A stretch of DNA of 64,000 bases from Algibacter amylolyticus (GTDB lineage Bacteria > Bacteroidota > Bacteroidia > Flavobacteriales > Flavobacteriaceae): contig NZ_JACHGE010000002.1 in assembly GCF_014202225.1 (NCBI RefSeq), positions 614,636-678,635 of the forward strand. The letters are read 5' to 3'. Positions 6,829 through 49,059 of the stretch are shown one piece after another. Position numbers and translations under genes: made by a program. A model generated the notes under the pieces. It saw only the letters and a list, made by a program, of their open reading frames with translations, was not told where the DNA came from and did no database searches. Each line of letters starts with the position of its first letter. Within the stretch, counting starts at the first letter, position 1.

Positions 6829-6835
6829 TAAAATG

Positions 6836-7144: not shown

Positions 7145-7156
7145 TTTCGTTTTTTT

Positions 7157-8317: not shown

Positions 8318-8377
8318 GATTTGAATTTTTAACAAAATTGAATATAATATGCGATGTATTTATAACCTTTTTTAGCT

Positions 8378-16152: not shown

Positions 16153-16218
16153 TTGTTAAGTACTAAATATTATATGGTTATTTCGAAAATCAATCTATAA
16201 ATTTTGGTTAGATCTATG

Positions 16219-16935: not shown

Positions 16936-16948
16936 TTCTTTAAGAATA

Positions 16949-18475: not shown

Positions 18476-18479
18476 GTTT

Positions 18480-18980: not shown

Positions 18981-19068
18981 TTTTCTGATTTTTTATGAAT
19001 TACAAAAATTAGAAACCATTAATAGAAAACAGTTGAACAAGTTCAACATGTAAAATAATAGTATTAAA

Positions 19069-19641: not shown

Positions 19642-19683
19642 TAAAAGCGTAGTTCTAAATTTTTATATCACTATGTATTCATG

Positions 19684-21504: not shown

Positions 21505-21520
21505 CTTATTGATTCTCAGT

Positions 21521-26294: not shown

Positions 26295-26321
26295 TTTTTG
26301 TTGTATAAAATTTATCCATAC

Positions 26322-26329
26322 CAAAAATA
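26322..26329 (-). promoter_or_regulatory. Candidate -7 box (TAnnTTTG) of the GH2-GH86-sulfatase unit
   Basis: On the minus strand 26329-26322 reads TATTTTTG, 27 bp before the ATG at 26294. No good -33 TTG was found, which would suit an activator-dependent promoter. Confidence 0.45.
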
Positions 26330-29425: not shown

Positions 29426-31915
29426 TTACTTAGTGTTTACAATTATGTTATCTACCGCTAAACCAATAGAAGTTGCTTTTATATTTATGGTTCCTGCTTT
29501 TTCGGTGCCTTTAATAATTGCTAAACATTTACCGTAGAAAGCTTTGATGTGATCTTCTTTAAATGATTCTAATGATGCAGAGTTACCATTCCCCACAGAT
29601 TCTAAAACACCATTTCCGGTTATTTCAAAATTCACTAGGTTTTCAGCATTCGGGCATAAGTTACCATCCTTATCTTCAATTCTAACGGTTATAAAAGACA
29701 AGTCTTTTCCGTCTGCATCGATTTCAGTTCTATCAGCTATTAATCTGATTTTAGCAGGTTTTCCAGCTGTTTTAATTTCTTTGGTAGCAGCAACTTCACC
29801 GTTTTTATAAGCAACCACTTTAATGCTACCCGGTTGGTAAGGCACATTCCAAGACAATCTGTATTTTGACTTAAACATACCTCTTTTAAATCCGTACCCT
29901 GAATCTAAAAAGCCTCTGTATTCTGTGTGCACGTCGGTTAAATCTTTTCCTTTTACTCTTTTTCCGTAAGATTTTCCGTTTACAAATAGTTCAACTTCAT
30001 CACAATTGGTATAGGCGTAAACAGGAATAGTTTCTCCCTTTTTAGCTTCCCAATTCCAGTGAGGTAAAACGTGAACCATCGGTTCTGTTGTCCATTGACT
30101 TTGGTATAAATAAAATCTATCTTTTGGAAATCCACATAAATCTACAGGAGCAAAATAAGAGGCGTGAGATGGCCAATCGTCATTCCAATAACCATTGGTT
30201 GTATTATCTCGACCACCATAAGGCGTTGGTTCTCCTAAATAATCAAAACCTGTCCAAATAAACTCTCCTAAAGAATGTGGATTTGCTTCTTGAGCAGCAA
30301 ATTCAACATCTGGAGAATATGCCCAAGATGGTCCAACAGTAACATCGTAACTAGAAACCTGGTTGGTTTCCTTTTTAACCTTGTAATCTAAGGGTATATC
30401 GTAATAACCTCTTGTACTGGTTTGAGAAGATGTTTCAGATCCATAAAAAATCATATCCGGGTTTTGTTCTCTAATTTCACCGTAATATGCCGGTTTGTAG
30501 TTTACACCAACAACATCTATTTGATACGCTAATTTATTTGTAAATGATGCAGGATAGTAATTAAAACCAGCAGTTGTTGGTCTAGTGTTATCTTCATCAT
30601 GGCAAATATCATTAAGCATTTTTGCTATTTTCCAACCATCTGGTTTACCTTGCTCTAAAATTTCGTTACCAATACTCCACATAATAACAGAAGGATGATT
30701 ACGATCTCTTTTTATCATATCTCGTAAATCGGTTTCTGCCCATTCATCAAAATAATTACTGTAGCCATTAGGTACTTTTGGTAGTTTCCATTCATCAAAA
30801 GCTTCATCAATAACAACAATACCTAATCTATCGCAAACTTGTAGCATTTCTGTAGATGGCGGGTTATGACTTGTTCTTAGAGCATTAGCGCCCATAGATT
30901 GCATAATTTGCATTTGACGCTCTGTAGCTCTATAATTTACAGCGGCTCCTAGAGGTCCTAAATCGTGATGCATACAAACACCGTTTAGTTCTACAGCTTT
31001 TCCGTTAAGGTAAAAACCTTCTTTTTTAAATTCAATTTGTCTAATACCAAATTCTGTTTCAAACTCATCTACAACGTGACCATCAATTTTAACTCGGCTA
31101 ATGGCTTTGTATAAATTAGGAACACCAATATCCCAAAGTTTTGGGTTGCTTACTTCAATGTCTTGAATTTGTTTTCCTTCGGAATTTTTTTCTAGTTGAA
31201 TAGTTTGAGTAGATACCGCAACACTATTATTTTCTGTATCTAAAATAGTTGTCTCTAAAGTAGCTTCCGTATTAGAATCTGTTGCGTTTTTTATTTTAGT
31301 TTCAATTTTAACAGTTGCTTGTTCTGCAGTTGCGTTTGGCGTTGTAATATAGGTTCCCCATTGCGGAATATGTACGGCATTGTTTATTTTTAAGCGTACA
31401 TTACGATAAATACCAGCACCAGGATACCATCTTTCCGATAGGACTTCTGGAGCACATTGTACTGCAATAACGTTATCTTCTCCAAACTTGATATGCGGTG
31501 TTAAATCGTACTCAAAACCACTATAACCATAATGCCTTTTACCAACATTGTGGCCATTAATAAATACGGTAGAATTATCCATTACACCATCAAATTCTAT
31601 AGAAATTTGCTTGTTTTTATGGTTAGAATCAACAGTAAAATGTTTTCTATACCAAGCAATGCCATCTATTGGTAAACCACCATTTCGGGCATTGTGCTTA
31701 TTATCAAAAGGACCTTCAATAGCCCAATCGTGTGGTACATTTAATTTTCTCCAACTACTATCATCTAAAGTGATGCTTTCACCTTGAGGAATAGTGTCTT
31801 TTTTAAATAACCAATTCTTGTTAAAGTCTTTATCGGTAATTAACGTTGGTTTGTTCTCATTACATGAAAACATAAATAGAATTAAAATGAATACTAATAT
31901 TTTATGAAATTGCAT
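29426..31915 (-). CDS. GH2 family exo-glycosidase, lipoprotein
   Basis: An 829-residue protein with lipobox LFMFSC. GH2 domain order is complete: IDGIAWYRKHF in the sugar-binding domain, NHPSVIMWSIGNEILEQ with the acid/base glutamate near residue 414, and FYGSETSSQ with the probable nucleophile. C-terminal Ig-like domains end with a GNG-containing repeat. It is a paralogue of the enzyme encoded at 1044-3545 (same length and motif spacing), differing in being lipid-anchored. It lies between a LacZ-like GH2 gene (14 bp) and a sulfatase gene (2 bp), and probably trims desulfated galactan oligosaccharides at the inner face of the outer membrane. Confidence 0.88.
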   Translation of the reverse strand: MQFHKILVFILILFMFSCNENKPTLITDKDFNKNWLFKKDTIPQGESITLDDSSWRKLNVPHDWAIEGPFDNKHNARNGGLPIDGIAWYRKHFTVDSNHKNKQISIEFDGVMDNSTVFINGHNVGKRHYGYSGFEYDLTPHIKFGEDNVIAVQCAPEVLSERWYPGAGIYRNVRLKINNAVHIPQWGTYITTPNATAEQATVKIETKIKNATDSNTEATLETTILDTENNSVAVSTQTIQLEKNSEGKQIQDIEVSNPKLWDIGVPNLYKAISRVKIDGHVVDEFETEFGIRQIEFKKEGFYLNGKAVELNGVCMHHDLGPLGAAVNYRATERQMQIMQSMGANALRTSHNPPSTEMLQVCDRLGIVVIDEAFDEWKLPKVPNGYSNYFDEWAETDLRDMIKRDRNHPSVIMWSIGNEILEQGKPDGWKIAKMLNDICHDEDNTRPTTAGFNYYPASFTNKLAYQIDVVGVNYKPAYYGEIREQNPDMIFYGSETSSQTSTRGYYDIPLDYKVKKETNQVSSYDVTVGPSWAYSPDVEFAAQEANPHSLGEFIWTGFDYLGEPTPYGGRDNTTNGYWNDDWPSHASYFAPVDLCGFPKDRFYLYQSQWTTEPMVHVLPHWNWEAKKGETIPVYAYTNCDEVELFVNGKSYGKRVKGKDLTDVHTEYRGFLDSGYGFKRGMFKSKYRLSWNVPYQPGSIKVVAYKNGEVAATKEIKTAGKPAKIRLIADRTEIDADGKDLSFITVRIEDKDGNLCPNAENLVNFEITGNGVLESVGNGNSASLESFKEDHIKAFYGKCLAIIKGTEKAGTINIKATSIGLAVDNIIVNTK

Positions 31916-31929: not shown

Positions 31930-35199
<3,270 letters not shown>

Positions 35200-35220: not shown

Positions 35221-36735
35221 TTATAATGTTTTATTTAAAGCCGAAATGTCTAATGGATCGTCCATGTCTTTTTGAAGCTTTAATAGTTGATTGAATAATG
35301 TTTTTACGCGTTCTCTTTGTTCAGGGTTTTTAGAAATGTCATGTATTTCCTCGGGATCTTTTTTAAGATCGAATAACAATACTTTTTCAATTTTAGGGTA
35401 TACCAAAAGTTTATATCCGTCTTTTCTAATCATCCTTTGGGCATCTTTATAAGCACCGTAAATAGCATGGTAATTACTAGTTTTCTTAGCACCTTTGGCA
35501 ATGTCTAAAAAAGTATTAAACTCAATATACTTTGGTTTTTCTACACCTGCAATATCTAGTGAAGTGGCCATGGCATCTTGCAAATACACATCTACATTCG
35601 TTTTTTTATTCTTAGGGATATCTGGTCCTAAAATTATCATTGGTGGTCTAATACTATGGTCAAATAAGCTTTGTTTACCTATTAAACCATGTCTTCCCAT
35701 AGCTAAACCATGATCTGCAGTGAAAATAATATAGGTGTTGTCCATTTTACCAGAAGCTTTAAGCACTTCAATTATTTTACCTATTTGTGCATCTACGTGT
35801 GTAATACTCGCGTAATATTCTTTGGTATGTGTTTTTACAGCTAATTCAGTTCTTGGAAAAGGCGCTAAGGCTTCATCTCTAACATTTATACCGCTAGCAA
35901 TATCCTCATTAAAAGGGTACTTTAGTAAATAACTTTCGGGTAGTGATATGCTGTCTAAGTTATACATATCAAAATACTCTTTTGGAGCTTGCCTCGGATC
36001 GTGAGGGGCATTAAAAGCTAAGTACATAAAAAAGGGATTGTCTTTAGTTTTTGCTTCATCTATAAAAGATATAGCATCATCTTTTAATACTTCACTCCAA
36101 TGTTTTCCGCCTTCCCAAAAACCACCTTTAGACGTGTCAAAAGAACTCCAAGTGGTGTCGTTAATAGATTTTGGTCGGTTATAACCATTAGGCATAATAG
36201 CTTCGTAATCTGGATTTTTTGTTTTAGATAGCGAATCGAATTTTGCAACCATTTCCCAATGATCCCAAGTGTCTTTTGGCATTCCCGGACGCACATGTTT
36301 GGTATGTTGAAAAACCTGGTTTGCAGGTGCATCTACATGCCATTTACCTGTCATGTATGTATCATAACCATTTGTTTCTAGAAGTTTTCCCCAGGTTTTA
36401 TTTAAGGAGTCTTTTTTTATCCAATTTTTTCTGAAGTTATTTACATTCCAAACAGATCTACCAGAAATTAACATGGCTCTAGAGGCAGCACAAACGGCGC
36501 CACTCCAAGCTCCCATGTTGTAAGCATTTGTAAATGTGGTTCCTTCTTTAACCAACAAATCCATTGTTGGGGTAATTATTTCATTATTCCCAAGTGCATG
36601 AATAGAAGAGTAAGTTTGATCGTCGGTAAAAATGAAGACGATGTTTGGCTTTACTTTAAAAGCTTCTTTTTCAACCTTTTTGTTACATGAAGAAATAGCA
36701 ACTATTAAAAATAAAAAACAGATTTTAATTTTCAT
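35221..36735 (-). CDS. S1-family sulfatase, lipoprotein, C-A-A-S-R formylglycine site
   Basis: A 504-residue protein with lipobox AISSC. Motifs: IVFIFTDDQTYSSIHALG, formylglycine site C-A-A-S-R (GAVCAASRAM near residue 78), TGKWHVDAP and FTADHGLAMGRHG. Alanine replaces the usual proline at the third position, a variant accepted in some S1 subfamilies. Residues AWSGAVC before the site also differ from the other four sulfatases here. It is the first gene of the operon running to 26448 and lies about 150 bp from the stop of the HTCS gene. Confidence 0.88.
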   Translation of the reverse strand: MKIKICFLFLIVAISSCNKKVEKEAFKVKPNIVFIFTDDQTYSSIHALGNNEIITPTMDLLVKEGTTFTNAYNMGAWSGAVCAASRAMLISGRSVWNVNNFRKNWIKKDSLNKTWGKLLETNGYDTYMTGKWHVDAPANQVFQHTKHVRPGMPKDTWDHWEMVAKFDSLSKTKNPDYEAIMPNGYNRPKSINDTTWSSFDTSKGGFWEGGKHWSEVLKDDAISFIDEAKTKDNPFFMYLAFNAPHDPRQAPKEYFDMYNLDSISLPESYLLKYPFNEDIASGINVRDEALAPFPRTELAVKTHTKEYYASITHVDAQIGKIIEVLKASGKMDNTYIIFTADHGLAMGRHGLIGKQSLFDHSIRPPMIILGPDIPKNKKTNVDVYLQDAMATSLDIAGVEKPKYIEFNTFLDIAKGAKKTSNYHAIYGAYKDAQRMIRKDGYKLLVYPKIEKVLLFDLKKDPEEIHDISKNPEQRERVKTLFNQLLKLQKDMDDPLDISALNKTL

Positions 36736-36887: not shown

Positions 36888-39800
36888 TTAAGCATCTGTT
36901 TCCTCTTTATTGGCATCATCAGAATCTGAAAGACTTATGTACTTGCTAGGGATAACTCCAAATTGCTTTTTAAAGCATTTAGAAAAGTATGAGGCCGTGT
37001 TAAAACCAGTCATGTACATGATTTCTTTAACAGAAAGGTCGCTGGTTTCTAATAACTGTACAGCGCGTTTTAAACGAATATTTCTAATAAACTCACTAGA
37101 TGAAAGCCCGGTAAGTTCTTTGGTTTTTAAATATAAGTTACTTCTACTCATATTCATTTCTTTTACAAACATTTCAACGCTAAATTCTGAATTCATCATG
37201 TGTTTTTCAACAATTTCAATAGCATTTTGAAGGAAAGATTCATCGGAAGATGTTACTGTAATCTCATTCGGTTGTAAAGTAATATCTCTATTAAAACGCT
37301 TTCTTAATTCTTCACGATGTTTTAAAATATTCGAAATTTTTAACTCCAAAAGTTCTAAATCAAATGGCTTTCTTATATAAGCATCTGCACCTGTTTTTAG
37401 ACCTTCAATTTCTTTTTCTTGAGATGTTTTTGCGGTTAACATTACCACAGGAATATGACTAGTTTCTTGAGAGCTTTTAAGCTGATTACAAAATTCTATA
37501 CCATCCATAACAGGCATAACTAAATCTGTAATTACAATGTTAGGCATAAATTTATTTGCTAATTCTAAGCCTTTTTGGCCATTTTCAGCTTCGTAAACAT
37601 AATACTTTTCTCCAAATCCTTTTTTAATGAAAGATCTAATGTCTGCATTATCATCTATAATTAATAATATAGGTAGCTTAGATCTTGATCTCGATATGTT
37701 TTGGTCAACAATATCATCCATAAAACTTATGGCATGAGAGTCGGCATCTTCTTTAGTAAGGAAAGTGTTGGATTCAAAAACCTCATGAAAATTTGTTTCA
37801 TTGTTCGTATTAAAATTTTCTTTGTCTTTTGGCAGCCATACTATAAATTTCGATCCATTTTCCGAATCGCTAATTACTTTTATAATCCCTTGGTGCAACT
37901 CTACAAGGTTTTTTGTAAAAGAAAGTCCAATACCAGTGCCTTTTGTGTCTTTTTGCTTAGTGATACCTATTTCGGTATAAAAGCGCTCAAAAATATGCTG
38001 AATTCTATGTGCAGGTATCCCAGGACCAGAATCTTTAACTTGAATTACAACGTATTTAGATTGCTCTATATCCATTAAAATACCTTCAGGTTCAGTGAAA
38101 TCTTCACCATCAAATATATCTAAGCTGATAGCGCCTTCTTCCGGAGTAAATTTAAATGCGTTTGATAGTAAATTATTTATTATTTTTTCAACAGCATCAG
38201 GATCAAACCAAGTTAAAATGGAATGTTTTGAAGCATCTATTTTAAAAAAGATATTCTTCTTTTTGCTTAAAAATTGAAAAGGTTCTCCTATTTCTTTTAG
38301 AAATTCAACAATATCACTTTTACTTAAATTCAGATTCATTTTACCCTGATCCATTTTTCTGAAATCTAATAACTGGTTTATTAATCTCAGTAAATAGTCG
38401 GTGTTTTTGCGCATAATTCCGTACTGGTCGTTGGTTTCCTTAGGACTGATGGTTTCACCTTTTTTTATTAGGTAATCTAAAGGACCTTTTATTAGGGTTA
38501 ATGGCGTTCTGAATTCATGCGATATATTAGTAAAGAATTCCAGTTTTAAACGGTGAATTTCTTCATTTTTTTCTTTCTCAAATTGGTTGAGTTCCAATTG
38601 ATGCTTTTTAGCAGAACGTATAATAGTATATCTTCTATAAGCTAAAAGAAGACCTATAGCGATTAGCAAGTAAAGAAATTTAGCTGCATTGGTACGCCAC
38701 CAAGGTGGAATTACATTTATCTTTAATTCTACAGGAGTTTCATCCCAAATATTATCATTGTTTGATGCCTTAACCTTTAGCGTATAAGTTCCTGGTTCTA
38801 GGTTGGTATAAGTGGCATATCGATTGTCTGATGTTGTGTAAATCCAGTCTTTATCAAAGCCTGCAAGTTTGTATGCGTATTTGTTTTTACTAGAGGCGGC
38901 ATAGTGTAGTGCGGCAAATTCGAAGGAAAAACTATTTTCAATGTATTTTAATTCAATCTCGTCTATGGAGTTTATAGATTTGTTTAAAATTACGCGTCCG
39001 TTGATTTCTTCACCAATAGAAACGGGTTTATTAAAAATAGAAAAGGCAGTAAGTACAGTTTCTGCTTTTATTTTGTTGCTAATAATGTCTTCTGGATAAA
39101 ATGCATTAAATCCGTTTACACCACCAAAAAGCATTTTACCGTCCTTAGTTTTAAAGGCAGATAATTCACTGAATTCGTTGCTTTGCAAGCCATCATTTAC
39201 ATCGTAATTTTGAAAGGTTTCATTCTCGGTATTAAATTTTGATAATCCTTTATTTGTAGAAAGCCACAGGTTTTTTTGATCGTCTTCTAAAATCCCTTTA
39301 ATAACATTATTGGGCAGTCCATCTTTTTCAGAATATGCTTTAAAACTAATCTTCTTATCTGTTACAATCAGCTTATTCAATCCGCCTCCAAAAGTCCCAA
39401 TGTAGAGATCTCCAGATTTGGTTTCAAAAACAGTTAAAATATAGTTGTGGCTTATAGACGTTTTGTCTTTTGGATTGTTTTTGTAAATATTGAATTTTGG
39501 ATTTTTTACATGAATTTGATCCGGCGTTAATCTAGATAAACCATTACCAGTAGCAAACCAAATGTTTCCTTTTGAATCTTGAAAAATATCACGAATAATG
39601 TTGTTAGAAATACTAAATTTCTTGTTTGGATTGTTAGAGAGTATGTCTTTCTTAAAACTAATGCCGTCTTCATTAATTAATCGCCTATGTACACCTCCAT
39701 TGTAGGTGCCTATCCAAATATTTCTATCTTTATCCTGAAGCAAAGAAAAGACGCCGTTTGGAAATTCTTTTAAAGGTTTTAAATCATTATCTGTTAGAAT

Positions 39801-41171
39801 ATTCGTGTGTGATAATTCTATTTCAAATAACCCAGGAGAACCTTCACCACCAATAAGTACTTTTTTGGAATCTTTTAAATGTATTTCTTCAATGGCAAAT
39901 ACCTTGCTTAGTTTTGTTAAATGATGAAATTGATTATAATTTTTTTCATTTGCTGTTTTACTCAAAAAATTTAAGCCACCGCCTTCGGTACCGATCCATA
40001 AGTTTTCGTTACTGTCTTCAAAAATAGAACGGACTTTATCGTTACTTAAACTACCAGGATCTAAGCTGTTTTTAATATGTGTAAATTGTTTTTTGTGAGG
40101 ATCAATTTTGTTAATACCACCGCCATTAGTTCCAACCCATACAATACCGGCGTGATCAATAAATATTGATCTTACAGCATTTTTACTCAGGCTAAAACTA
40201 GGGTTTTTTGGGTCATATTTATATTTGCCAATTAACTCTGGTGTTTTTGTTTCAGAGAAATTCATGAATTCCAAAAGACCATCATCTGTTCCTGCCCAAA
40301 TATGATTATCATTTATAGAAACGGCATTGTATGATCCTTTACCTATTAATTGAACCTCTTCAATGTCACTATTAACAACATATCGATATAATCCATCATT
40401 AGTACCTAAAATTAAATTACCATAACTGTCTTCATTTATCGTTTTTACATCAAAATAGGGTAAATTAATAAGGTTGTTCACGTGATGGAAATAAAAATCT
40501 CCATTTTTATCTCTCGATAATTTTGATAAACCGTTAATACCTCCAAACCAAACTTGGTGTTTACTATCTTCATAAACTGTGCTTATATTGTTTTTAGACC
40601 TTGTTGGTTTAGAACTATTTTGATAGAGGTTGAAATGTTCAAATTTTAAAGAGTCTATTGGTTTAGAGAGATCAGCCATATCTATACCTTCATTACTACC
40701 AACCCATAATCTATGGCTGCTATCACGAAAAAGCACTCTAATATGGTCGCTTTTTATACTATCCGGATTGTTTGGGTCACTTTTAAAAGATTTAAACTCT
40801 TCAGTTTGTTTATCAAAATAATTTAAACCTCCACCTGTTGTAGCAATCCATAAGTTACCTTTGCTATCGTCAATAATTTTCCAAATTAAGTTACTGCTTA
40901 TGCTCTTTGGATTTTTAGAATCTGGTTTAAATATTCTAAAGTTGTAGCCATCATATTTGTTTAATCCGTCATGCGTACCAAACCACATAAAAAGGTTGTC
41001 GTCTTGAAATATGGTATTAACGTCACTTTGAGACAAACCATTTTCAGTTGTAAAATGCTCAAATTTTACCGTATTTTGGGCATAACAATACGATACAGTT
41101 ATCAATAATAAATAAATTATTAGATTGCTGTATTTTTTTTTTTTGTATTGTTTATTGAAGCTTTTCGTCAT
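36888..41171 (-). CDS. Hybrid two-component system sensor/regulator (HTCS)
   Basis: A 1427-residue protein. An N-terminal signal/anchor (LLLITVSYCYAQ) is followed by about 14 two-component-regulator-propeller blades (repeats such as IWIGTEGGGLN, LWVGSNEG), forming a two-propeller periplasmic sensor, then a Y_Y_Y domain (residues about 740-815) and one membrane segment near 830-850. The histidine kinase has phosphate-accepting histidine in NISHEFRTPLTLI (near 885) and DSGPGIPAHR. A receiver domain has ILLIIDDNAD and aspartate in VITDLVMPVMDG (near 1216). An AraC helix-turn-helix domain ends it (IMYMTGFNTASYFSKCFKKQFG). HTCS proteins bind oligosaccharides and switch on their PUL; this one sits between the sulfatase/GH2 operon and the L-sugar operon. 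Confidence 0.95.
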   Translation of the reverse strand: MTKSFNKQYKKKKYSNLIIYLLLITVSYCYAQNTVKFEHFTTENGLSQSDVNTIFQDDNLFMWFGTHDGLNKYDGYNFRIFKPDSKNPKSISSNLIWKIIDDSKGNLWIATTGGGLNYFDKQTEEFKSFKSDPNNPDSIKSDHIRVLFRDSSHRLWVGSNEGIDMADLSKPIDSLKFEHFNLYQNSSKPTRSKNNISTVYEDSKHQVWFGGINGLSKLSRDKNGDFYFHHVNNLINLPYFDVKTINEDSYGNLILGTNDGLYRYVVNSDIEEVQLIGKGSYNAVSINDNHIWAGTDDGLLEFMNFSETKTPELIGKYKYDPKNPSFSLSKNAVRSIFIDHAGIVWVGTNGGGINKIDPHKKQFTHIKNSLDPGSLSNDKVRSIFEDSNENLWIGTEGGGLNFLSKTANEKNYNQFHHLTKLSKVFAIEEIHLKDSKKVLIGGEGSPGLFEIELSHTNILTDNDLKPLKEFPNGVFSLLQDKDRNIWIGTYNGGVHRRLINEDGISFKKDILSNNPNKKFSISNNIIRDIFQDSKGNIWFATGNGLSRLTPDQIHVKNPKFNIYKNNPKDKTSISHNYILTVFETKSGDLYIGTFGGGLNKLIVTDKKISFKAYSEKDGLPNNVIKGILEDDQKNLWLSTNKGLSKFNTENETFQNYDVNDGLQSNEFSELSAFKTKDGKMLFGGVNGFNAFYPEDIISNKIKAETVLTAFSIFNKPVSIGEEINGRVILNKSINSIDEIELKYIENSFSFEFAALHYAASSKNKYAYKLAGFDKDWIYTTSDNRYATYTNLEPGTYTLKVKASNNDNIWDETPVELKINVIPPWWRTNAAKFLYLLIAIGLLLAYRRYTIIRSAKKHQLELNQFEKEKNEEIHRLKLEFFTNISHEFRTPLTLIKGPLDYLIKKGETISPKETNDQYGIMRKNTDYLLRLINQLLDFRKMDQGKMNLNLSKSDIVEFLKEIGEPFQFLSKKKNIFFKIDASKHSILTWFDPDAVEKIINNLLSNAFKFTPEEGAISLDIFDGEDFTEPEGILMDIEQSKYVVIQVKDSGPGIPAHRIQHIFERFYTEIGITKQKDTKGTGIGLSFTKNLVELHQGIIKVISDSENGSKFIVWLPKDKENFNTNNETNFHEVFESNTFLTKEDADSHAISFMDDIVDQNISRSRSKLPILLIIDDNADIRSFIKKGFGEKYYVYEAENGQKGLELANKFMPNIVITDLVMPVMDGIEFCNQLKSSQETSHIPVVMLTAKTSQEKEIEGLKTGADAYIRKPFDLELLELKISNILKHREELRKRFNRDITLQPNEITVTSSDESFLQNAIEIVEKHMMNSEFSVEMFVKEMNMSRSNLYLKTKELTGLSSSEFIRNIRLKRAVQLLETSDLSVKEIMYMTGFNTASYFSKCFKKQFGVIPSKYISLSDSDDANKEETDA

Positions 41172-41465: not shown

Positions 41466-42476
41466 ATGAAATATATAGTTTGCGAAAAACCCGGAGAATT
41501 CATCTTAAAAGAAAAAGAGGCGCCCGTTAGAAAAGCTGGGGAAGCTTTATTAAAAATAAATAAAGTAGGCATTTGTGGTACCGATTTACATGCTTACAGT
41601 GGTAATCAGGCCTTTTTTACTTATCCAAGAATTTTAGGACACGAATTAGCTTCGGAAGTTTTAGAAATCGATGAAAATGCAAAAGGAATCAAAGCCGGAG
41701 ATAAAGTTGTGGTTATGCCTTATGTAAGCTGTGGCGAGTGTATTGCTTGTAGAAACGGCAAAACTAATTGTTGCACAAATATTCGCGTTTTAGGTGTACA
41801 TGCCGATGGTGGTATGCAAGAACAAATTACCGTTCCTGCTAATATATTATTACCTGCCAATAATCTTTCAAACGATCAAATGGCTATTGTAGAACCTTTA
41901 GCTATTGGCGCTCATGCTATTAGGAGAGCAGATATTAAAGCAGGAGAAACTGTAGTGGTTGTGGGTTGCGGTCCTATCGGGATTGGTATTATGAAACTCG
42001 CACAAATTGCAGGCGCGAAAGTAATAGCCTTGGATATGAACGAAGACCGATTAAAATATGCTAAAGAAAATATAGGTGTAGATTATGTTGTAAACGTGAG
42101 TAACGATCCTGTAAAGCAAATTGAAGAGATAACCAATGGCGACTTAGCCACTGCTGTATTTGATGCTTCGGGAAATAAATTTGCTTTAGAGGCCTGTCCA
42201 GATTATATGGCTCATGGCGGACGCTTTGTTTTAGTAGGTCTTTCCAAAGGAGAATTAACATACACACATCCAAAAGTACACGCCAAAGAAATGACTTTAA
42301 TGTGCAGCAGAAATGCCACAACAGAAGATTTTAAGCACGTCATTAGTGTACTAGATCAATTTCCAACAGAATCTTTTATTACGCACAGCGTACCATTTAC
42401 AGAAATGATAGCCAATTTTGATAGTTGGTTAAAACCAGAAACGGGTGTTATAAAAGCAACTGTAAATTTCAATTAG
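41466..42476 (+). CDS. Zinc-dependent sugar-acid dehydrogenase, LgoD-like (predicted L-galactonate 5-dehydrogenase)
   Basis: A 336-residue medium-chain dehydrogenase. Catalytic zinc ligands occur in VGICGTDLHAYSGN (near residue 37) and RILGHELASE; the structural zinc site is C-x2-C-x2-C-x7-C (CGECIACRNGKTNCC). The nucleotide loop is VGCGPIGIG with a following LDMN aspartate, suggesting NAD. The stretch with HAYSGNQAFFTYPRILGHE closely resembles what I recall of E. coli LgoD (YjjN), which oxidises L-galactonate to D-tagaturonate. It is first in a seven-gene operon with UxaB and UxaA, the enzymes that consume D-tagaturonate and D-altronate. L-fuconate is an alternative substrate because it differs only by a 6-deoxy group. 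Confidence 0.8.
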   Translation: MKYIVCEKPGEFILKEKEAPVRKAGEALLKINKVGICGTDLHAYSGNQAFFTYPRILGHELASEVLEIDENAKGIKAGDKVVVMPYVSCGECIACRNGKTNCCTNIRVLGVHADGGMQEQITVPANILLPANNLSNDQMAIVEPLAIGAHAIRRADIKAGETVVVVGCGPIGIGIMKLAQIAGAKVIALDMNEDRLKYAKENIGVDYVVNVSNDPVKQIEEITNGDLATAVFDASGNKFALEACPDYMAHGGRFVLVGLSKGELTYTHPKVHAKEMTLMCSRNATTEDFKHVISVLDQFPTESFITHSVPFTEMIANFDSWLKPETGVIKATVNFN

Positions 42477-42479
42477 AAA

Positions 42480-44132
42480 ATGTCTAATAATTACGTACAA
42501 ATAGATCCTAAAGACAATATTATTGTCGCCATAACGCCTTTGCAAAAAAGCATGTTTATAGATGTTGCAGGTCAAACGTTTACTTTACAAGAAGGTATTA
42601 AGCAAAAACATAAATTTGCTTTGTACGATTTTAAAGTGGGCGATGCCATTTATATGTATGGTGTTTTAATTGGAAAAGCTGTGTTACCTATAAAAAGAGG
42701 AACAGCTATTACTATTGAAAATGTAAAACACGCTTCCGCGGAATTTAACGCTTCACAAGAAAAAATATCTTGGTCGGCTCCTGATGCTTCTGCTTTTGAA
42801 AATCGCACATTTAACGGCTATCACAGAGAAGACGGAAAAGTAGGTACAGCCAATTATTGGTTAGTAATTCCGTTAACCTTCTGTGAAAACAGAAATATTG
42901 ATGTTTTGGAAGGGGCACTTTCAGAACAATTAGGTTACGAAACCAAAAAAGATTTCGCTGTAGATACCGATGCATTAATTAAGCAATATAAAACAGGAGG
43001 TTCTGATACCGATATTCTAAACACACCTATTATAACAACTAAGGAAGAAATAGAACAAAACAGAACCTTCCCGAATGTTGATGGTATTAAATTTTTAAAG
43101 CATGATGGTGGTTGTGGCGGTATTCGTCAAGACTCCGAAACACTTTGCAAGTTACTAGCGGGTTATATTACAAACCCAAATGTTGCTGGAGCAACCGTTT
43201 TTAGTTTAGGTTGCCAAAATGCGCAAATAGAAATGTTACAAAGCGCTATTAATGCTATAGACCCTAATTGTAAAAAAACGGTTCATTATTTAGAACAGCA
43301 ACGCAGTTCTAGCGAACGCCAATTAATAGAGGAGGCTGTAAAACATACTTTTTTAGGATTAATACAAGCTAATAAAACAGTCCGTAAACCGGCACAATTA
43401 AGTAAACTTGTATTAGGTTTAGAATGTGGCGGGTCCGATGGGTTTTCTGGTATTTCAGCGAATCCAGCTTTAGGTTATGCTTCCGATTTATTGGTTGCTT
43501 TGGGCGGAAGTCCTGTGCTTTCTGAATTTCCAGAATTAAACGGTGTTGAACAAGACATTATTAATAGGTGTGTTACAGATGAGGATTCTAAAAAATTCTA
43601 TGGTCTAATGCGTGCGTATTCAGCAGCTGCTGTTGCCGTTGGGTCGGGTTTTGAAAATAACCCTTCACCTGGAAATATAAAAGATGGTTTAATAACCGAT
43701 GCCATGAAATCTGCAGGAGCAGCAAAAAAAGGAGGTACATCGCCTGTTGTTGCTGTATTAGATTATACCGAGCAGGTTATAAAACCGGGTTTAAATTTAT
43801 TGTGTACACCTGGAAACGATGTAGAATCTACAACCGGTTTAGTCGGTTCAGGCTGCAACGTTGTGGTGTTTACTACAGGTTTAGGCACACCAACTGGAAA
43901 TCCGGTGGCACCTGTTTTAAAGATGTCGAGCAATACCAATTTATACGAGCGTATGAATGACATTATAGATATTAATGCAGGTACCGTAATTACTGGCGAA
44001 GACACCATCCAAAGCATGGGCGAAAAAATATTAGACCATATTATTAAGGTGGCTAGTGGAGAAGTAGCTTCAAAAGCAGTTCTGCACGGTAATAACGATT
44101 TTATTCCATGGAAACGTGGTGTTTCATTGTAA
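42480..44132 (+). CDS. uxaA: UxaA-family altronate dehydratase
   Basis: A 550-residue protein beginning 3 bp after the dehydrogenase stop. Residues 1-90 are the small N-terminal SAF-like domain; the large dehydratase domain follows, with FNGYHREDGKVGTANYW, the KHDGGCGGIRQDS cluster near residue 208, and LECGGSDGFSGISANPA near residue 316. It is full length for UxaA/GarD enzymes (about 500-550). The family removes water from D-altronate or D-galactarate to give 2-keto-3-deoxy acids, using an iron centre. In this operon it would take D-altronate made by UxaB to 2-keto-3-deoxygluconate. L-fuconate dehydration is the alternative use. Confidence 0.88.
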   Translation: MSNNYVQIDPKDNIIVAITPLQKSMFIDVAGQTFTLQEGIKQKHKFALYDFKVGDAIYMYGVLIGKAVLPIKRGTAITIENVKHASAEFNASQEKISWSAPDASAFENRTFNGYHREDGKVGTANYWLVIPLTFCENRNIDVLEGALSEQLGYETKKDFAVDTDALIKQYKTGGSDTDILNTPIITTKEEIEQNRTFPNVDGIKFLKHDGGCGGIRQDSETLCKLLAGYITNPNVAGATVFSLGCQNAQIEMLQSAINAIDPNCKKTVHYLEQQRSSSERQLIEEAVKHTFLGLIQANKTVRKPAQLSKLVLGLECGGSDGFSGISANPALGYASDLLVALGGSPVLSEFPELNGVEQDIINRCVTDEDSKKFYGLMRAYSAAAVAVGSGFENNPSPGNIKDGLITDAMKSAGAAKKGGTSPVVAVLDYTEQVIKPGLNLLCTPGNDVESTTGLVGSGCNVVVFTTGLGTPTGNPVAPVLKMSSNTNLYERMNDIIDINAGTVITGEDTIQSMGEKILDHIIKVASGEVASKAVLHGNNDFIPWKRGVSL

Positions 44133-44147
44133 AATAATTTTAAAAAA

Positions 44148-45608
44148 ATGACAAAATTAAATAGAACTACAGCAAACAAACCTATGCAGCACCCTGTGCG
44201 TATTATGCAATTTGGAGGAGGTAATTTTTTAAGAGCCTTTTGCGATTGGATGTTTGATGTTTTAAATAAAACCACCGATTTTAATGGGAGTATAGTGGTT
44301 GTAAAGCCTACTAAACGTGGCGATTATACAGAGCTAAGAACTCAGGACGGTTTGTTTCATGTAGCTCTAGACGGCGTAAGAAATGGCAAGTTGGTTTCCG
44401 AAGTAACTTTAGTAGAATCTGTTAGTGGCGTGATTCAACCTTATATACAGTGGGATGAGTATTTAGCTTTGGCAGAACAACCTCAATTGCGTTTTGTGGT
44501 ATCAAACACTACCGAAGCGGGAATTAAGTTTTCTGAAACTGATAAACTAACCGATTGTCCACCACACGAGTTCCCTGCAAAGTTAACCCTGTGGTTACAT
44601 CATCGTTTTAATCATTTTAATGGAGCAGCAGATAAAGGTTGTATTTTATTACCATGCGAATTGATTGAAAATAATGGCGATGCCTTATTAAAAACTATTT
44701 TAGAATATGCTGAACTTTGGAATTTATCCGAAGCCTTTAAAACTTGGATAGTAAACCATAATCATTTTTGTAGTACGTTGGTCGATCGTATTGTTTCCGG
44801 TTTCCCTGAAGGAAGAAAAGCTGAATTCTCGCAACAAATTGGTTTTGATGATGATTTATTAGTAGCTGGAGAAGATTACCACAGTTGGGTAATTAAAGGG
44901 CCTGCTTTAGTTCAAGACGAATTGCCTTTTTCTAAAACCGATTTAAACGTTCAGTTTGTAAACGATTTATCGAATTATCGAGAAATGAAAGTTCGTATTT
45001 TAAACGGAGCGCACACTTCACTGGTGCCTGTTGGATATTTAGCAGGATTACGAACAGTAAAGGAAAGTATGGATGATGAAGTTGTAAAAAATCATGTTTT
45101 GCAAGTGTTATCAAATGAAGTAAAACCAACCTTAACTAATTTTTCAGAAAGTGAAATTGATGCCTTTATTGCTTCTGTTATCGACAGGTTTAAAAACCCA
45201 ACATTAAAACATTATTTATTAGCTATTTCATTAAATAGCACCTCTAAATTTCAAGCGCGACTATTGCCTGCTTTTAGAGAGTATACCGCTTTAAACGGAA
45301 CTTTTCCGAAGCGCATTGCGTTTTCATTAGCTTGCATGATTCGTTTTTATAAAGGAGAATTCAATAATGAAACTATTGTTCTAAACGACGACCCTAAGGC
45401 TTTGGAATTCTTTAAGAAGGAATGGAATAAAGTTGATTCAGAAGAGCAAAATTTAAGACAATTAGTTCAAAACACATTAGCAAATAAAATGATTGTAGGC
45501 GACGATTTATCTGGATATAATGGTTTAGCAACTTTCATTACAGATAAGATTAAAGCGATTGAAACTCATGGTGTTTCATCCGTGTTTAGTACATCAACAG
45601 CACATTAA
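44148..45608 (+). CDS. uxaB: Tagaturonate reductase / mannitol dehydrogenase family (UxaB)
   Basis: A 486-residue long-chain polyol dehydrogenase, the normal size for UxaB. The N-terminal Rossmann segment is RIMQFGGGNFLRAF (residues about 15-28); VVSNTTEAGI follows near residue 122, and the substrate domain has VRILNGAHTSLVPVGYLAG near residue 282, containing the catalytic lysine/asparagine/histidine surroundings of this family. UxaB reduces D-tagaturonate to D-altronate with NADH. Placed between UxaA and a sugar lactonase gene, it fits step four of the inferred L-galactose route. No signal peptide, so cytoplasmic. Confidence 0.9.
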   Translation: MTKLNRTTANKPMQHPVRIMQFGGGNFLRAFCDWMFDVLNKTTDFNGSIVVVKPTKRGDYTELRTQDGLFHVALDGVRNGKLVSEVTLVESVSGVIQPYIQWDEYLALAEQPQLRFVVSNTTEAGIKFSETDKLTDCPPHEFPAKLTLWLHHRFNHFNGAADKGCILLPCELIENNGDALLKTILEYAELWNLSEAFKTWIVNHNHFCSTLVDRIVSGFPEGRKAEFSQQIGFDDDLLVAGEDYHSWVIKGPALVQDELPFSKTDLNVQFVNDLSNYREMKVRILNGAHTSLVPVGYLAGLRTVKESMDDEVVKNHVLQVLSNEVKPTLTNFSESEIDAFIASVIDRFKNPTLKHYLLAISLNSTSKFQARLLPAFREYTALNGTFPKRIAFSLACMIRFYKGEFNNETIVLNDDPKALEFFKKEWNKVDSEEQNLRQLVQNTLANKMIVGDDLSGYNGLATFITDKIKAIETHGVSSVFSTSTAH

Positions 45609-45618
45609 TAGATTAAAT

Positions 45619-46446
45619 ATGATTATTGATTCACATCAACACTTTTGGTATTACAAACCAGAAAAGCATGGCTGGATAGACGATAATATGTCGGTTATTC
45701 GTCGTGATTTTACACCTTCAGATTTAAAGACCGTTTATAAAGAAAACGGTATTGACGGTTGTGTAGCTGTACAAGCCGATCAAACCTTAGCCGAAACCGA
45801 ATTTTTATTAAGCCTGTCGGCTAAAAACGATTTTATAAAAGGCGTTGTAGGTTGGGTAGATTTGCAAGACGAACAAGTTGCCGATGTTTTAGAAGAGTAT
45901 GGACGTCATAATAAAATAAAAGGGTTTCGCCACATTGTGCAAGGTGAAGCCGATCATAATTTTGTGCTACGTCCTAAGTTCATGCGAGGAATTTCAGCAT
46001 TAGAAAAACATCAATTTACCTATGATATTTTAGTATTTCCACATCAATTAGGTTCGACTTTAGAATTCGTTAGAAAATTTCCAAATCAGAAATTCGTAAT
46101 CGATCATATCGCAAAACCTTACATAAAAGATGGTTTTTTCGATGGTTGGGCCTCAATGATGACAGAAATAGGAAAACATGAGAATGTATCATGTAAACTA
46201 TCAGGTATGATTACCGAAGCCGATTTTAAAACCTGGACGGCAGCACAGCTAGAACCATATATGCAAGTCGTTTTAAAGGCTTTTGGAAGCTATAGACTCT
46301 TATTTGGATCCGATTGGCCGGTGTGTTTAGTAGCAGGGAATTACAAACAAGTAAAAGATTTAATAACGGACTTTATAGCAAGTTTAAGCGCCACAGAACA
46401 GGCAGATATAATGGGCCAAAATGCGATAAAGTTTTATAATTTATAA
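45619..46446 (+). CDS. Amidohydrolase, L-fucono/L-galactono-lactonase family
   Basis: The start is ATG at 45619, ten bases after the UxaB stop; the longer frame overlaps UxaB and adds 20 residues before the usual N-terminus. The 275-residue product opens with IDSHQHFWYY, the metal-binding H-x-H of amidohydrolase 2 proteins, has FVIDHIAKP near residue 160 and ends the barrel with FGSDWPVC near residue 232. This matches L-fuconolactone/L-rhamnonolactone hydrolases. It would open L-galactono-lactone made by the SDR encoded next. In-line order lactonase-SDR-permease supports a sugar-lactone step. Confidence 0.87.
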   Translation: MIIDSHQHFWYYKPEKHGWIDDNMSVIRRDFTPSDLKTVYKENGIDGCVAVQADQTLAETEFLLSLSAKNDFIKGVVGWVDLQDEQVADVLEEYGRHNKIKGFRHIVQGEADHNFVLRPKFMRGISALEKHQFTYDILVFPHQLGSTLEFVRKFPNQKFVIDHIAKPYIKDGFFDGWASMMTEIGKHENVSCKLSGMITEADFKTWTAAQLEPYMQVVLKAFGSYRLLFGSDWPVCLVAGNYKQVKDLITDFIASLSATEQADIMGQNAIKFYNL

Positions 46447-46448
46447 TT

Positions 46449-47240
46449 ATGGATTTAGGATTAAAAGGAAAAATAGTAGTTGTTACAGGAGCAGCAGGAA
46501 TAAAAGGAAGTATTGGAGAAACTATTGTACAATCTTTAGCCAATGAAGGAGCAATTCCTGTAATAGTTTGTAGAAACGACAGAGGGTTTGGCTACGAAAA
46601 AGAGCTGCAAGAAAAAGGTGTTGATGCCTTATTTGTAAAAACAGATTTATCGGATTATAAACAAATAGAGCGAGCTGCCAAAGTAATAGAAACCAAATAC
46701 GGTAAAATTGATGCCTTAATAAACAATGTAGGTGTTAATGATGGTGCTGGCTTAGATGCTTCGATGGACGATTTTATGTATTCTTTAAAATTAAACATGG
46801 TTAGTTTTTTTGCTATGACTAAATATTGCCTACCTATGCTAAAGAAAACCAAAGGTAACATTCTAAATATAGGTTCTAAAGTGGCACTAACAGGCCAAGG
46901 AGGTACTTCGGGATATGCGGCATCTAAGGGAGGTGTGTTTGGATTAACAAGGGAATGGGCTGTAGATTTAATTTCGTTCGGTATCCGTTCTAACGCTATT
47001 GTTATAGCCGAAAGTTGGACCCCTGCTTATGATACGTGGATAAAATCATTAGATAATGGCGAGGAAAAATTAAAGGCTATTGTTAAGAAAATTCCTTTAG
47101 AAAACAGAATGACTATGCCTAATGAAATTGCCGATCAATGTTTATTTACTATTTCAGAGAAGTCATCACACACAACAGGTCAATTTATTACTGTAGATGG
47201 CGGTTATGTGCATTTAGACAGGTCTTTATTAACAGAATAA
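46449..47240 (+). CDS. SDR sugar dehydrogenase (predicted L-galactose/L-fucose 1-dehydrogenase)
   Basis: A 263-residue protein starting 2 bp after the lactonase stop. It has an expanded cofactor loop VTGAAGIKGSIGE at residue 12, NNVGVND near residue 92, the catalytic serine in NIGSKVAL and Y-x-x-x-K in GYAASKGG near residue 156. The C-terminal ends with TVDGGYVH. The neighbouring lactonase and FucP genes imply oxidation of an L-sugar at C1 to its lactone. L-fucose and L-galactose share ring configuration, and enzymes of this type often accept both; red-algal context favours L-galactose. Confidence 0.83.
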   Translation: MDLGLKGKIVVVTGAAGIKGSIGETIVQSLANEGAIPVIVCRNDRGFGYEKELQEKGVDALFVKTDLSDYKQIERAAKVIETKYGKIDALINNVGVNDGAGLDASMDDFMYSLKLNMVSFFAMTKYCLPMLKKTKGNILNIGSKVALTGQGGTSGYAASKGGVFGLTREWAVDLISFGIRSNAIVIAESWTPAYDTWIKSLDNGEEKLKAIVKKIPLENRMTMPNEIADQCLFTISEKSSHTTGQFITVDGGYVHLDRSLLTE

Positions 47241-47274
47241 TCAATTATTTAAACCAACTAAAAAAAACACATAA

Positions 47275-48597
47275 ATGAGCAACTTAAAAAGTAAAATACC
47301 TGTAGTTAGAAAAGAGTTACTTTTCCCTTTTATTATTATAACATCGCTATTTGCATTATGGGGAATTGCTAATGATTTAACTAATCCCATGGTATCTGCA
47401 TTTAAAAAAGTAATGCCAGAATTATCTAATGCTCAAGCATCATTAGTACAGTTTGCATTTTATATAGGTTATTTTTTTATGGCACTTCCTGCGGCATTAT
47501 TTATTAGAAAATATAGTTATAAGTCGGGAATAATTTTAGGATTGTGTTTATATGCCATTGGAGCTTTTTTGTTTTATCCGGCAGCAGCAAATCAAGAATT
47601 TAATTATTTTTTAATTTCGCTTTGGGTTATCACTTGCGGATTAGCTTTTTTAGAGACCACTTCAAATCCACTTATATTAGCACTTGGGGATAAAGAAACT
47701 GCTACGCAGCGTTTAAATTTAGCTCAGGCTTTTAATCCAATTGGTTCGTTAACGGGAATGATAATCGCGCAAGTTTTTGTTATTAGCGCTTTGCAATCTG
47801 ACGATTATTCTACTGAAGCTTATAATGCTTTAGCTTCGGAAGAATTAGCTGCTATTAGAGAAAATGATTTAAGTATTATTAGTTTACCCTATATAGGATT
47901 AGGAGTTTTAGTTTTGGTAATTATGGCTATTATTATATTTACCAAAATGCCAAAAACTGCAGAGGAAGATAAAATGTCGATTTCAGAATCTTTCAAAAAA
48001 TTATTCTCCAATAGCAACTATAAATTTGGTGTTTTAGCACAAGCTTTTTATGTTGGAGCGCAGATTATGTGTTGGACGTATATTTTTCAGTATGTAGATA
48101 ATATTAATGAAACTTTAGGATTGGAACTAACAGCAACTTATTTTAACGTTACAGCTATGATCTTGTTTTTAGTTGGGCGCTGGATTGGTACTGCTTTAAT
48201 GAAAACTATAAATCCTTCAAAATTATTAATGTTTTTTGGTATTGGAGGAGTTATATGTTGTACCGGAGCCATTATTTTATCTGGAATGGCTGGTTTAATT
48301 TCTTTAGTAGCTATTTCAGTATTTATGTCTATTATGTTCCCAACTATTTATGGAATTGCTCTAAAAGATATGGGAGACGAGGCTAAAATTGGATCCGCTG
48401 GTTTGGTTATGGCCATTGTTGGTGGTGCTTTAATGCCTGTATTGCAAGGTAGTATTTTAGATTGGGGTGGTCCTGGTTTTGCAGATGAACGTGTTTTAGG
48501 GTTTATTCCTGAAGTTAATTTCTCTTTTGTTTTACCACTTATCTGTTTGGCTATTGTTGCTTGTTACGGTTATTCAACTTATAAAACTTCAAAATAA
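47275..48597 (+). CDS. fucP: FucP-type sugar:proton symporter (major facilitator superfamily)
   Basis: A 440-residue membrane protein with about 12 hydrophobic segments. The N-terminal FALWGIANDLTNPMV and the GLAFLETTSNPLILALG segment near residue 123 are typical of the FucP/GluP sugar symporters, as is the RLNLAQAFNPIGS loop near residue 147. FucP carries L-fucose and also L-galactose across the inner membrane with protons. It follows the SDR gene by 34 bp and is the only inner-membrane sugar transporter in the window, so it probably imports the monosaccharide released in the periplasm. Confidence 0.92.
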   Translation: MSNLKSKIPVVRKELLFPFIIITSLFALWGIANDLTNPMVSAFKKVMPELSNAQASLVQFAFYIGYFFMALPAALFIRKYSYKSGIILGLCLYAIGAFLFYPAAANQEFNYFLISLWVITCGLAFLETTSNPLILALGDKETATQRLNLAQAFNPIGSLTGMIIAQVFVISALQSDDYSTEAYNALASEELAAIRENDLSIISLPYIGLGVLVLVIMAIIIFTKMPKTAEEDKMSISESFKKLFSNSNYKFGVLAQAFYVGAQIMCWTYIFQYVDNINETLGLELTATYFNVTAMILFLVGRWIGTALMKTINPSKLLMFFGIGGVICCTGAIILSGMAGLISLVAISVFMSIMFPTIYGIALKDMGDEAKIGSAGLVMAIVGGALMPVLQGSILDWGGPGFADERVLGFIPEVNFSFVLPLICLAIVACYGYSTYKTSK

Positions 48598-48603
48598 AAA
48601 CGT

Positions 48604-48945
48604 ATGAGTACTAAAAGACACTGTTTTTCTTGTGATTTAAAAGACGATTCTAAATTAATTGCTGAATATAAGGAGCATCACGCAGCAGGTAATGCTTGGC
48701 CAGAAATCACAAAAAGTATAAAAGATGCGGGCATTATAGATATGGAAATTTACCTTATAGGAAACCGTATGTTTATGATTATGGAGGTGGATGATACGTT
48801 TGATCCTGTGAATAAGGCAGAACAAGACGTCATCAACCCAAAAGTCCAAGAATGGGAAAACTTAATGTGGGATTATCAACAAGAATTGCCTTGGGCCAAA
48901 AGTGGTGAAAAATGGATGGCACTAGAACAAATATTTAAATTATAA
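48604..48945 (+). CDS. L-sugar mutarotase (RhaM / PF05336 family)
   Basis: A 113-residue single-domain protein. The pattern matches RhaM-like mutarotases: CFSCDLKDD, EYKEHHAAGNAWPEI near residue 22, IYLIGNRMFMIMEVDD near residue 50 and a final EKWMALEQIFKL. These enzymes interconvert alpha and beta anomers of L-rhamnose or L-fucose so that the dehydrogenase can use both. It is the last gene of the operon, 6 bp after FucP, and is followed by a terminator. Confidence 0.88.
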   Translation: MSTKRHCFSCDLKDDSKLIAEYKEHHAAGNAWPEITKSIKDAGIIDMEIYLIGNRMFMIMEVDDTFDPVNKAEQDVINPKVQEWENLMWDYQQELPWAKSGEKWMALEQIFKL

Positions 48946-49017: not shown

Positions 49018-49059
49018 ACTAAAAAAGCTATAAACACTGTGTTTATAGCCTTTTTTAGT
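49018..49059. terminator. Bidirectional hairpin terminator after the L-sugar operon
   Basis: ACTAAAAAAGCTATAAAC (49018-49035) pairs with GTTTATAGCCTTTTTTAGT (49041-49059) with one bulged base and a 5-base loop. Poly-A and poly-T flanks suit termination from both sides, between the mutarotase gene and the convergent FAD reductase gene. Confidence 0.85.

Follow-up and report, generated by a model that had tools for sequence, protein, structure and literature searches.

A seven-gene operon beside a porphyran-type locus of Algibacter amylolyticus, by which the bacterium very probably lives on L-galactose

The use of L-galactonate by Escherichia coli relies on LgoD, UxaB and UxaA, whose chemistry leads from the acid to 2-keto-3-deoxygluconate (KDG); this route begins at the acid, and neither an L-galactose dehydrogenase nor a lactonase is known to belong to it. 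In Bacteroides (Phocaeicola) vulgatus, the first enzyme of L-galactose use is said to be an aldo-keto reductase (AKR) and the lactonase to be of the COG3618 type. The conversion of L-galactose to D-tagaturonate in this bacterium is credited to Hobbs et al. (2014) in PMC12632266, the genes Bvu0219-Bvu0220-Bvu0222 encoding a dehydrogenase and an L-galactonate dehydrogenase that act from L-galactose through L-galactonate to D-tagaturonate. The whole L-galactose route is performed by Luteolibacter sp. LG18, in which genes for L-galactose dehydrogenase, D-altronate dehydratase, tagaturonate reductase and L-galactonate dehydrogenase are clustered (lguABCDEF), LguD, LguC and LguB have been assayed and gene disruptions have been reported (PMC12632266). 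Here, we describe a seven-gene operon at positions 41466-48945 of a stretch of 64,000 nucleotides from Algibacter amylolyticus (the window; contig NZ_JACHGE010000002.1, positions 614,636 to 678,635), adjoining a polysaccharide utilization locus (PUL) of porphyran type. By means of this operon the bacterium very probably lives on L-galactose, the mirror-image sugar of nori seaweed; the route of a gut bacterium has, very probably, been rebuilt beside seaweed-digesting genes in a form common to many marine bacteria.

The seven open reading frames (ORFs) are all co-directional on the plus strand and fill the whole interval; an ATG start is possible for each, and the intergenic gaps are, in order, 3, 15, 10, 2, 34 and 6 bp, the lactonase start being taken as ATG 45619, which fits this spacing (the TTG at 45559 in the mechanical ORF list would overlap uxaB). 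According to Pfam and NCBIfam, the order is zinc-dependent dehydrogenase, UxaA, UxaB, amidohydrolase, short-chain dehydrogenase/reductase (SDR), FucP and RhaM-type protein. The first gene (41466-42476, 336 amino acids, PF00107 and PF08240), 99% identical to that of Algibacter lectus, the nearest named genome found, encodes a putative L-galactonate 5-dehydrogenase of the LgoD/zinc alcohol dehydrogenase type, at family level: its top NCBIfam model is PRK10083 (202.8 bits, below the cut-off of 376), its closest solved structure is RspB (4ilk), and it has a GHE motif and cysteines at positions 37, 89, 92, 95 and 103. It is followed by a UxaA-like protein (42480-44132, 550 amino acids, PF20629 and PF04295), a predicted D-altronate (or L-galactonate) dehydratase placed at family level by the galactarate dehydratase model (268.8 bits, below the cut-off of 730.85), and by the tagaturonate reductase UxaB (44148-45608, 486 amino acids), well above its cut-off (NF002969, 634.8 against 359 bits). 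The amidohydrolase (45619-46446, PF04909; closest solved structure 4dlf) is, at family level, a COG3618-type lactonase of the L-fucono/L-galactono-1,5-lactonase kind, with 270.3 bits in the L-fucono-1,5-lactonase model NF052480 (below the cut-off of 400). The SDR (46449-47240, 263 amino acids, 4gkb family) is a predicted sugar 1-dehydrogenase acting on L-galactose and/or L-fucose, and the symporter (47275-48597, 440 amino acids) is a FucP-type sugar:H+ transporter above its cut-off (TIGR00885, 508.5 against 280.4 bits). The last gene (48604-48945, 113 amino acids, PF05336) encodes a RhaM-family sugar mutarotase, assigned at family level, as its 21.3 bits in the L-rhamnose equivalog lie far below the cut-off of 99.6. 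UxaB, the SDR (as L-fucose dehydrogenase) and FucP exceed the NCBIfam cut-offs, and the lactonase, the zinc-dependent dehydrogenase, UxaA and the RhaM-type protein are placed at family level. On the 3' side of the operon, a stem-loop at 49021-49055, with T tails on both strands, matches the consensus of a bidirectional intrinsic terminator (9 terminator-like sites in the region, 5.0 expected); a sigma-70 promoter scan was uninformative (31 sites, 31.1 expected).

The main constituents of porphyran are D-galactose and, in alternation with it, either L-galactose-6-sulfate or 3,6-anhydro-L-galactose (PMC10033563), and the operon probably takes up and oxidizes the L-galactose freed from it. FucP would import the sugar, the RhaM-type protein would interconvert its anomers, and the SDR would oxidize C1 to give L-galactono-1,5-lactone, which the amidohydrolase would open to L-galactonate. 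The LgoD-like enzyme would then oxidize C5, yielding D-tagaturonate, which UxaB would reduce, with inversion of C5, to D-altronate; UxaA would dehydrate the D-altronate to KDG. We infer every one of these reactions and their succession; for the chemistry LgoD, UxaB, UxaA, already put forward in the first-pass annotation, the gene families are present and the order of steps is borrowed by analogy from E. coli and Luteolibacter. The downstream gene set is complete in the genome, which holds tagaturonate reductase, altronate dehydratase, KDG kinase and 2-keto-3-deoxy-6-phosphogluconate (KDPG) aldolase, the last two on contig C4, outside the operon, as had been anticipated. On C4, a protein of the phosphofructokinase (PFK) family lies between KDG kinase and KDPG aldolase (locus L051, 9737-12822), with relatives in L115 and L131; since Luteolibacter possesses a KDG kinase that uses pyrophosphate (PMC12632266), the substrate of this protein is of interest.

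Since the names of the SDR, FucP and the lactonase point to L-fucose families, the choice of sugar must rest on context, and the context favours L-galactose, in part because a distinct operon of the L-fucose type occurs elsewhere in this genome. This second operon, on contig C8 (G000:C8:137813-144759; locus L157, 7014-13960), encodes UxaA', an SDR, a protein of the fumarylacetoacetate hydrolase family (FAH), a lactonase, a second SDR, FucP and RhaM, without LgoD or UxaB. Its proteins share 61.0% (UxaA), 52.2% (lactonase), 54.5% (sugar SDR), 55.4% (FucP) and 60.6% (RhaM) identity with those of the window, and its UxaA'-SDR-FAH part is, judging by the protein families, presumably the non-phosphorylative L-fucose back end. 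In it a UxaA-family protein occupies the slot expected for an L-fuconate dehydratase, where locus L189 has an enolase-family enzyme. The seven genes of the window operon include neither FAH nor a second SDR, the genes of oxidative L-fucose use found on C8, and FucI had no match in the genome. Galacturonate has a UxaC-UxaB-UxaA set on contig C1, separate from the window operon; UxaC occurs in the genome at this place and at C2:8489 only, and the operon does not include it. L-fucose and galacturonate therefore appear, from gene content, to have their own gene sets, with the window operon as a third, parallel one.

The arrangement recurs in other genomes. Named genomes were scanned, and the best 80 of 222 relatives were retained; these are loci rather than species (two each come from Tamlana fucoidanivorans and Arenibacter palladensis), two further copies of genomes among them were handled apart, and their flanks reach up to 10 kb from the match of the first gene. 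The exact order of the seven genes, inserts allowed, is found in 41 of the 80, a count lowered by contig ends that interrupt some loci (e.g., L080, L103, L106 and L107), and therefore is not due to chance; together with the common orientation, the gaps of 2-34 bp and the predicted folds, this recurrence establishes the seven-gene operon that the first-pass annotation had called. Six further loci have the same order with an AKR in place of the SDR, and where lactonase and FucP both form part of the run (52 loci), an SDR fills this position in 45 cases and an AKR in 7, never both or neither. The AKR of locus L094 has no NCBIfam or PDB match at E 1e-40. At E <= 1e-18 it matches three PDB sequences, with a named match first appearing at E 2e-20; the L-galactose dehydrogenase 7lh6 ranks second among them. 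LguA of Luteolibacter and BVU_0219 are, we presume, AKRs. These two L-galactose dehydrogenases cluster with the Arabidopsis enzyme (PMC12632266). Of the 50 loci that have both UxaA and UxaB, 11 carry KDG kinase and KDPG aldolase within the gene run, as does none of the 30 others. The acid derived from L-fucose has no C6 hydroxyl, hence nothing to phosphorylate, and a further reason to favour L-galactose is that UxaB, like the KDG kinase and aldolase of the related operons, makes sense only for a sugar that bears a hydroxyl at C6.

Homologues of GH29 (glycoside hydrolase family 29) are found in 28 of these 80 loci, of P450 in 6, of GH86 in 3 and of FAH in a single one, which has neither UxaA nor UxaB. 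Reduced forms exist as well: LgoD-UxaA-lactonase without UxaB in seven Arenibacter loci (L125, L129, L132, L136, L143, L147 and L148), and LgoD-UxaB without UxaA in L102, L122, L144 and L150. Of 296 genomes sampled evenly across the phylum, 38 carry an LgoD-like homologue at E <= 1e-60, many of the distant ones in other gene contexts.

The third reason for favouring L-galactose is that the form with UxaA and UxaB tracks the GH86 porphyranase across genomes. This was seen in 299 genomes of the family, in which LgoD-like proteins were scored at E <= 1e-130 (55 genomes), FAH at E <= 1e-90 (77 genomes) and GH86 by its C-terminal domain PF18040 (18 genomes); because the GH86 beta-agarase 8h97 aligns to the same C-terminal stretch of the window porphyranase, this marker stands for agar/porphyran GH86 and not for porphyran alone. 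LgoD with UxaB within 9 kb is present in 37 genomes, and PF18040 in 15 of these 37 against 3 of the 262 others (Fisher p 8e-13), so that 15 of the 18 genomes with the porphyranase marker have a UxaB-linked LgoD; PF18040 is absent from all 18 genomes with LgoD and no adjacent UxaB, and is not associated with FAH (7 of 18 shared, 4.6 expected, p 0.26). The count of 37 genomes was the same with 46 or all 91 UxaB matches and with limits of 6 and 9 kb; a limit of 12 kb gives 38, PF18040 being present in 15 at every limit. At 12 kb, one of the 18 LgoD-alone genomes (G510) shows a UxaB of 40% identity near LgoD, and three of them (G330, G469 and G573) carry UxaB at >=50% elsewhere.

Phylogenies of the two back-end enzymes, each built after the removal of one short row, set the operon apart from galacturonate-type sets, here defined as LgoD-less UxaA-UxaB sets (17 rows, UxaC nearby in 5). 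In the UxaA tree, a quick, midpoint-rooted tree whose true root is not known and which carries a long-branch warning, the 65 LgoD-linked rows, window included, form one clade (SH-aLRT 95), and separate clades are formed by the 4 FAH-linked rows (SH-aLRT 99) and the 17 galacturonate-type rows (SH-aLRT 100). The UxaB tree splits into the LgoD-less type (17), the lineage of the window (27) and a second operon lineage (37). As for the front end, the glycine-rich cofactor loop of the window SDR (46449-46560) is extended and reads TGAAGIKGSIG. The pattern [ST]GxxGxxGSIG occurs in 49 of 49 SDRs linked to UxaA and UxaB, in 13 of 15 from loci with both LgoD and FAH, and in 73 of 77 that have LgoD in the same orientation no more than 7.5 kb away, while all 8 FAH-linked SDRs without LgoD have GxxxGIG; the loop was rejected as a marker of the sugar, as it tracks LgoD.

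Several observations weigh against L-galactose as the substrate. The SDR exceeds the NCBIfam cut-off for L-fucose dehydrogenase (NF052481, 352.9 against 300 bits), and its characterized relatives prefer L-fucose and are weak on L-galactose (PMC6946681). LgoD homologues, some with 68-86% identity, are found within or beside FAH-type L-fucose operons (L182, L183, L100 and L193-L196), and the LgoD, SDR and lactonase trees mix FAH-linked with UxaA+UxaB-linked rows, so that all three failed as discriminators between the two sugars. The co-occurrence counts carry no phylogenetic correction, the overlap being spread over 12 genera; FAH is present in all 18 genomes with LgoD lacking an adjacent UxaB and is associated also with LgoD plus UxaB (22 of 37 genomes, 9.5 expected), and the genes for both sugars often travel together. 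Furthermore, 22 of the 37 genomes have no PF18040 match, and passages retrieved by keyword from two Zobellia galactanivorans papers make no mention of such an operon, although one of them, the transcriptome paper, discusses an anhydrogalactose cluster. In the FAH-type loci listed above with LgoD homologues, a search for dehydratases of the UxaA type recognized one only in L194. Another reading, overlapping with the favoured one, is a dual operon: uptake, oxidation and lactone hydrolysis would be shared, L-galactonate being finished by the window operon and L-fuconate by the C8 enzymes, in agreement with front proteins that are all of L-fucose families, with the same loop type and LgoD in FAH loci and with the company that FAH keeps with LgoD. 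We regard this as possible, short of probable, as the L-fucose-type operon already contains a full set of front-end paralogues of its own, and FAH has no match at the threshold used in 15 of the 37 genomes that carry LgoD with UxaB. That LgoD, UxaB and UxaA act on L-fuconate in an operon for L-fucose alone is very unlikely: the family names of the SDR, lactonase and FucP suggest it, whereas the separate L-fucose-type operon, the kinase and aldolase embedded in related operons, the exchange of SDR for AKR and the link of the porphyranase with UxaB-linked LgoD rather than FAH all speak against it.

With the substrate unchanged, the dehydratase might act first, UxaA converting L-galactonate to 2-keto-3-deoxy-L-galactonate, and the LgoD-like enzyme and UxaB inverting C5 via 2,5-diketo-3-deoxy-L-galactonate to KDG. 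This resembles the last steps of 3,6-anhydro-L-galactose catabolism, a route through these intermediates having been described (PMC5943477). UxaA' occurs without LgoD or UxaB in the L-fucose-type operons L157, L180 and L181, and therefore L-fuconate, which is the 6-deoxy counterpart of L-galactonate, is presumably the substrate of a dehydratase of this family; the operon UxaA, moreover, shares 61% identity with UxaA' and 58% with the UxaA of the galacturonate set, and midpoint rooting groups it with UxaA', although the uncertain root and long branches lessen the value of this grouping. However, the Luteolibacter assays used tagaturonate for the reductase and altronate for the dehydratase, in keeping with E. 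coli (PMC12632266), and the LgoD-UxaB pairs of the four loci without UxaA, together with L079, which also has no UxaA, fit an epimerization unit, an argument qualified by the Arenibacter loci with LgoD-UxaA and no UxaB. Such an order of steps is, on balance, unlikely; the corresponding picture of two paralogous operons in marine Bacteroidota, with a shared front end (FucP, mutarotase, SDR and lactonase), swapped back ends and UxaA acting first, is improbable to the same degree. If true, LgoD and UxaB would be a 2-keto-3-deoxy-L-galactonate dehydrogenase and a diketo reductase, and the two L-sugars of agar and porphyran, L-galactose and 3,6-anhydro-L-galactose, would reach KDG through shared final steps. 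It is hardly conceivable that UxaA and UxaB serve galacturonate and merely adjoin an L-fucose front module, even if both are established enzymes of galacturonate use, considering that UxaC is missing from the operon and sits at two other places in the genome, once with its own UxaA and UxaB, and that the LgoD-linked UxaA rows stand in a clade apart from those of LgoD-less sets. We reject both the galacturonate and the L-fucose-only explanations on the strength of the separate gene sets that this genome holds and of the trees of UxaA and UxaB, and L-galactose, not L-fucose alone, is supported as the best reading. The L-galactose route of the first-pass annotation is accordingly upheld by context (the separate L-fucose operon and the tracking of GH86) and not by names, the SDR, lactonase and FucP being L-fucose-family proteins by sequence. 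In our reading, the front module would be interchangeable between L-fucose and L-galactose, with the sugar set by the back end; the front enzymes may well also be active on L-fucose, and it is the UxaA/UxaB back end that makes the operon an L-galactose one.

The adjoining PUL, also called porphyran-type in the first-pass annotation, is so classified from its GH86, GH2s, sulfatases and hybrid two-component system (HTCS) regulator; its genes between 14509 and 41171, and those of the cassette at 231-8335, lie on the minus strand. The HTCS gene (36888-41171), divergent from the operon and with homologues in 20 of the 80 related loci, is a candidate regulator of both operon and PUL. Beyond it lie an S1 sulfatase (35221-36735; family present in 10 related loci), a LacZ-type GH2 beta-galactosidase (31930-35196), a GH2 with DUF4982 and C5 domains (29426-31915), two S1 sulfatases (26448-28019 and 28032-29423), a further GH2 (23418-26324) and the GH86 beta-porphyranase (21521-23329; PF18040 and PF18206), whose top solved relative is the endo-acting GH86A beta-porphyranase 4aw7 (E 2e-106). 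Two of the five window sulfatases were compared with the PDB with regard to subfamily S1_11: that at 28032-29423 is closest to S1_19 and carrageenan sulfatases, and that at 35221-36735 has no close solved relative, its match to the exo-L-galactose-6-sulfatase 7lha (E 2e-29) being weak and not the best, so that a role as L-galactose-6-sulfatase is unconfirmed. The PUL continues through 14509-21531 with sulfatases (14509-16152 and 19684-21531), an SDR and Dabb/lactonase-like, HbpS-like and cNMP-binding proteins. A 1040-amino-acid protein at 11123-14245, with a weak Por secretion tail as its sole Pfam match, is possibly an unrecognized PUL enzyme. At 231-8335, an esterase, GH2, zinc alcohol dehydrogenase (ADH), ferredoxin reductase, ferredoxin and P450 make up a cassette of the 6-O-methyl-galactose demethylation type; its P450, ferredoxin, ferredoxin reductase and ADH genes are of the kind reported for 6-O-methyl-D-galactose demethylation in porphyran users (PMC10033563), and in Zobellia and Arenibacter loci homologues of the P450, the ferredoxin reductase and the ADH adjoin the same operon. 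A GH29 gene some 7 kb ahead of the window start (G000:C2:605687-607249) encodes, at family level, a putative exo-alpha-L-galactosidase. Its best solved relatives are two structures of BpGH29, an enzyme of the porphyran PUL of B. plebeius (PMC12316285): 7snk, whose entry is named alpha-L-fucosidase, and 7ljj, an exo-alpha-L-galactosidase. This GH29, like the porphyranase, GH2s, sulfatases and demethylation-type genes of the stretch, also speaks for L-galactose as the substrate of the operon. No SusC or SusD match was obtained among the 37 window proteins in the Pfam scan, which did not extend to the other ORFs of the window or to the bulk of the DNA on either side.

The enzymes that depolymerize porphyran are well studied, and we found no account of the fate of the freed L-galactose in marine bacteria in the open-access literature; the operon provides a specific and testable answer, conserved across marine Bacteroidota. 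UxaA and UxaB beside LgoD offer a signature that separates L-galactose operons from L-fucose operons with identically named front genes, and the pair of paralogous operons in one genome is a natural experiment in which the sugar specificity shifts by a swap of the back half of the pathway.

Among described systems, the C8 L-fucose-type operon shares the lactonase, SDR, FucP and RhaM module and differs in its UxaA'-SDR-FAH back end. The Halomonas loci for L-fucose, L-fuconate and L-galactonate likewise combine genes for L-fucose oxidation with lgoD, uxaA and uxaB (or uxaF), but include a TRAP (tripartite ATP-independent periplasmic) transporter for acids and L-fuconate genes in the same loci, and the term L-galactose is absent from the text of PMC5507952, the source for these loci. 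Luteolibacter, of the phylum Verrucomicrobiota, also has its KDG kinase outside the cluster; it differs in that LguA clusters with the plant-type L-galactose dehydrogenase, the aldolase LguE is inside the cluster and L-glucose is also taken via LguG, and the word lactonase is absent from the text of PMC12632266. P. vulgatus belongs to the same phylum as Algibacter, which, compared by description, differs in having an SDR as first enzyme, UxaB and UxaA inside the operon and a porphyran PUL adjoining it. The first-pass annotation had considered the arrangement undescribed, and no marine or porphyran L-galactose operon was found in the open-access literature, subscription papers and preprints being outside this scope; the pathway, however, is known from P. 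vulgatus and Luteolibacter. The route itself is thus not new, as both bacteria use the same path; what is new is the SDR predicted for the first step, the dedicated UxaA and UxaB paralogues, the porphyran setting and the spread through marine Bacteroidota.

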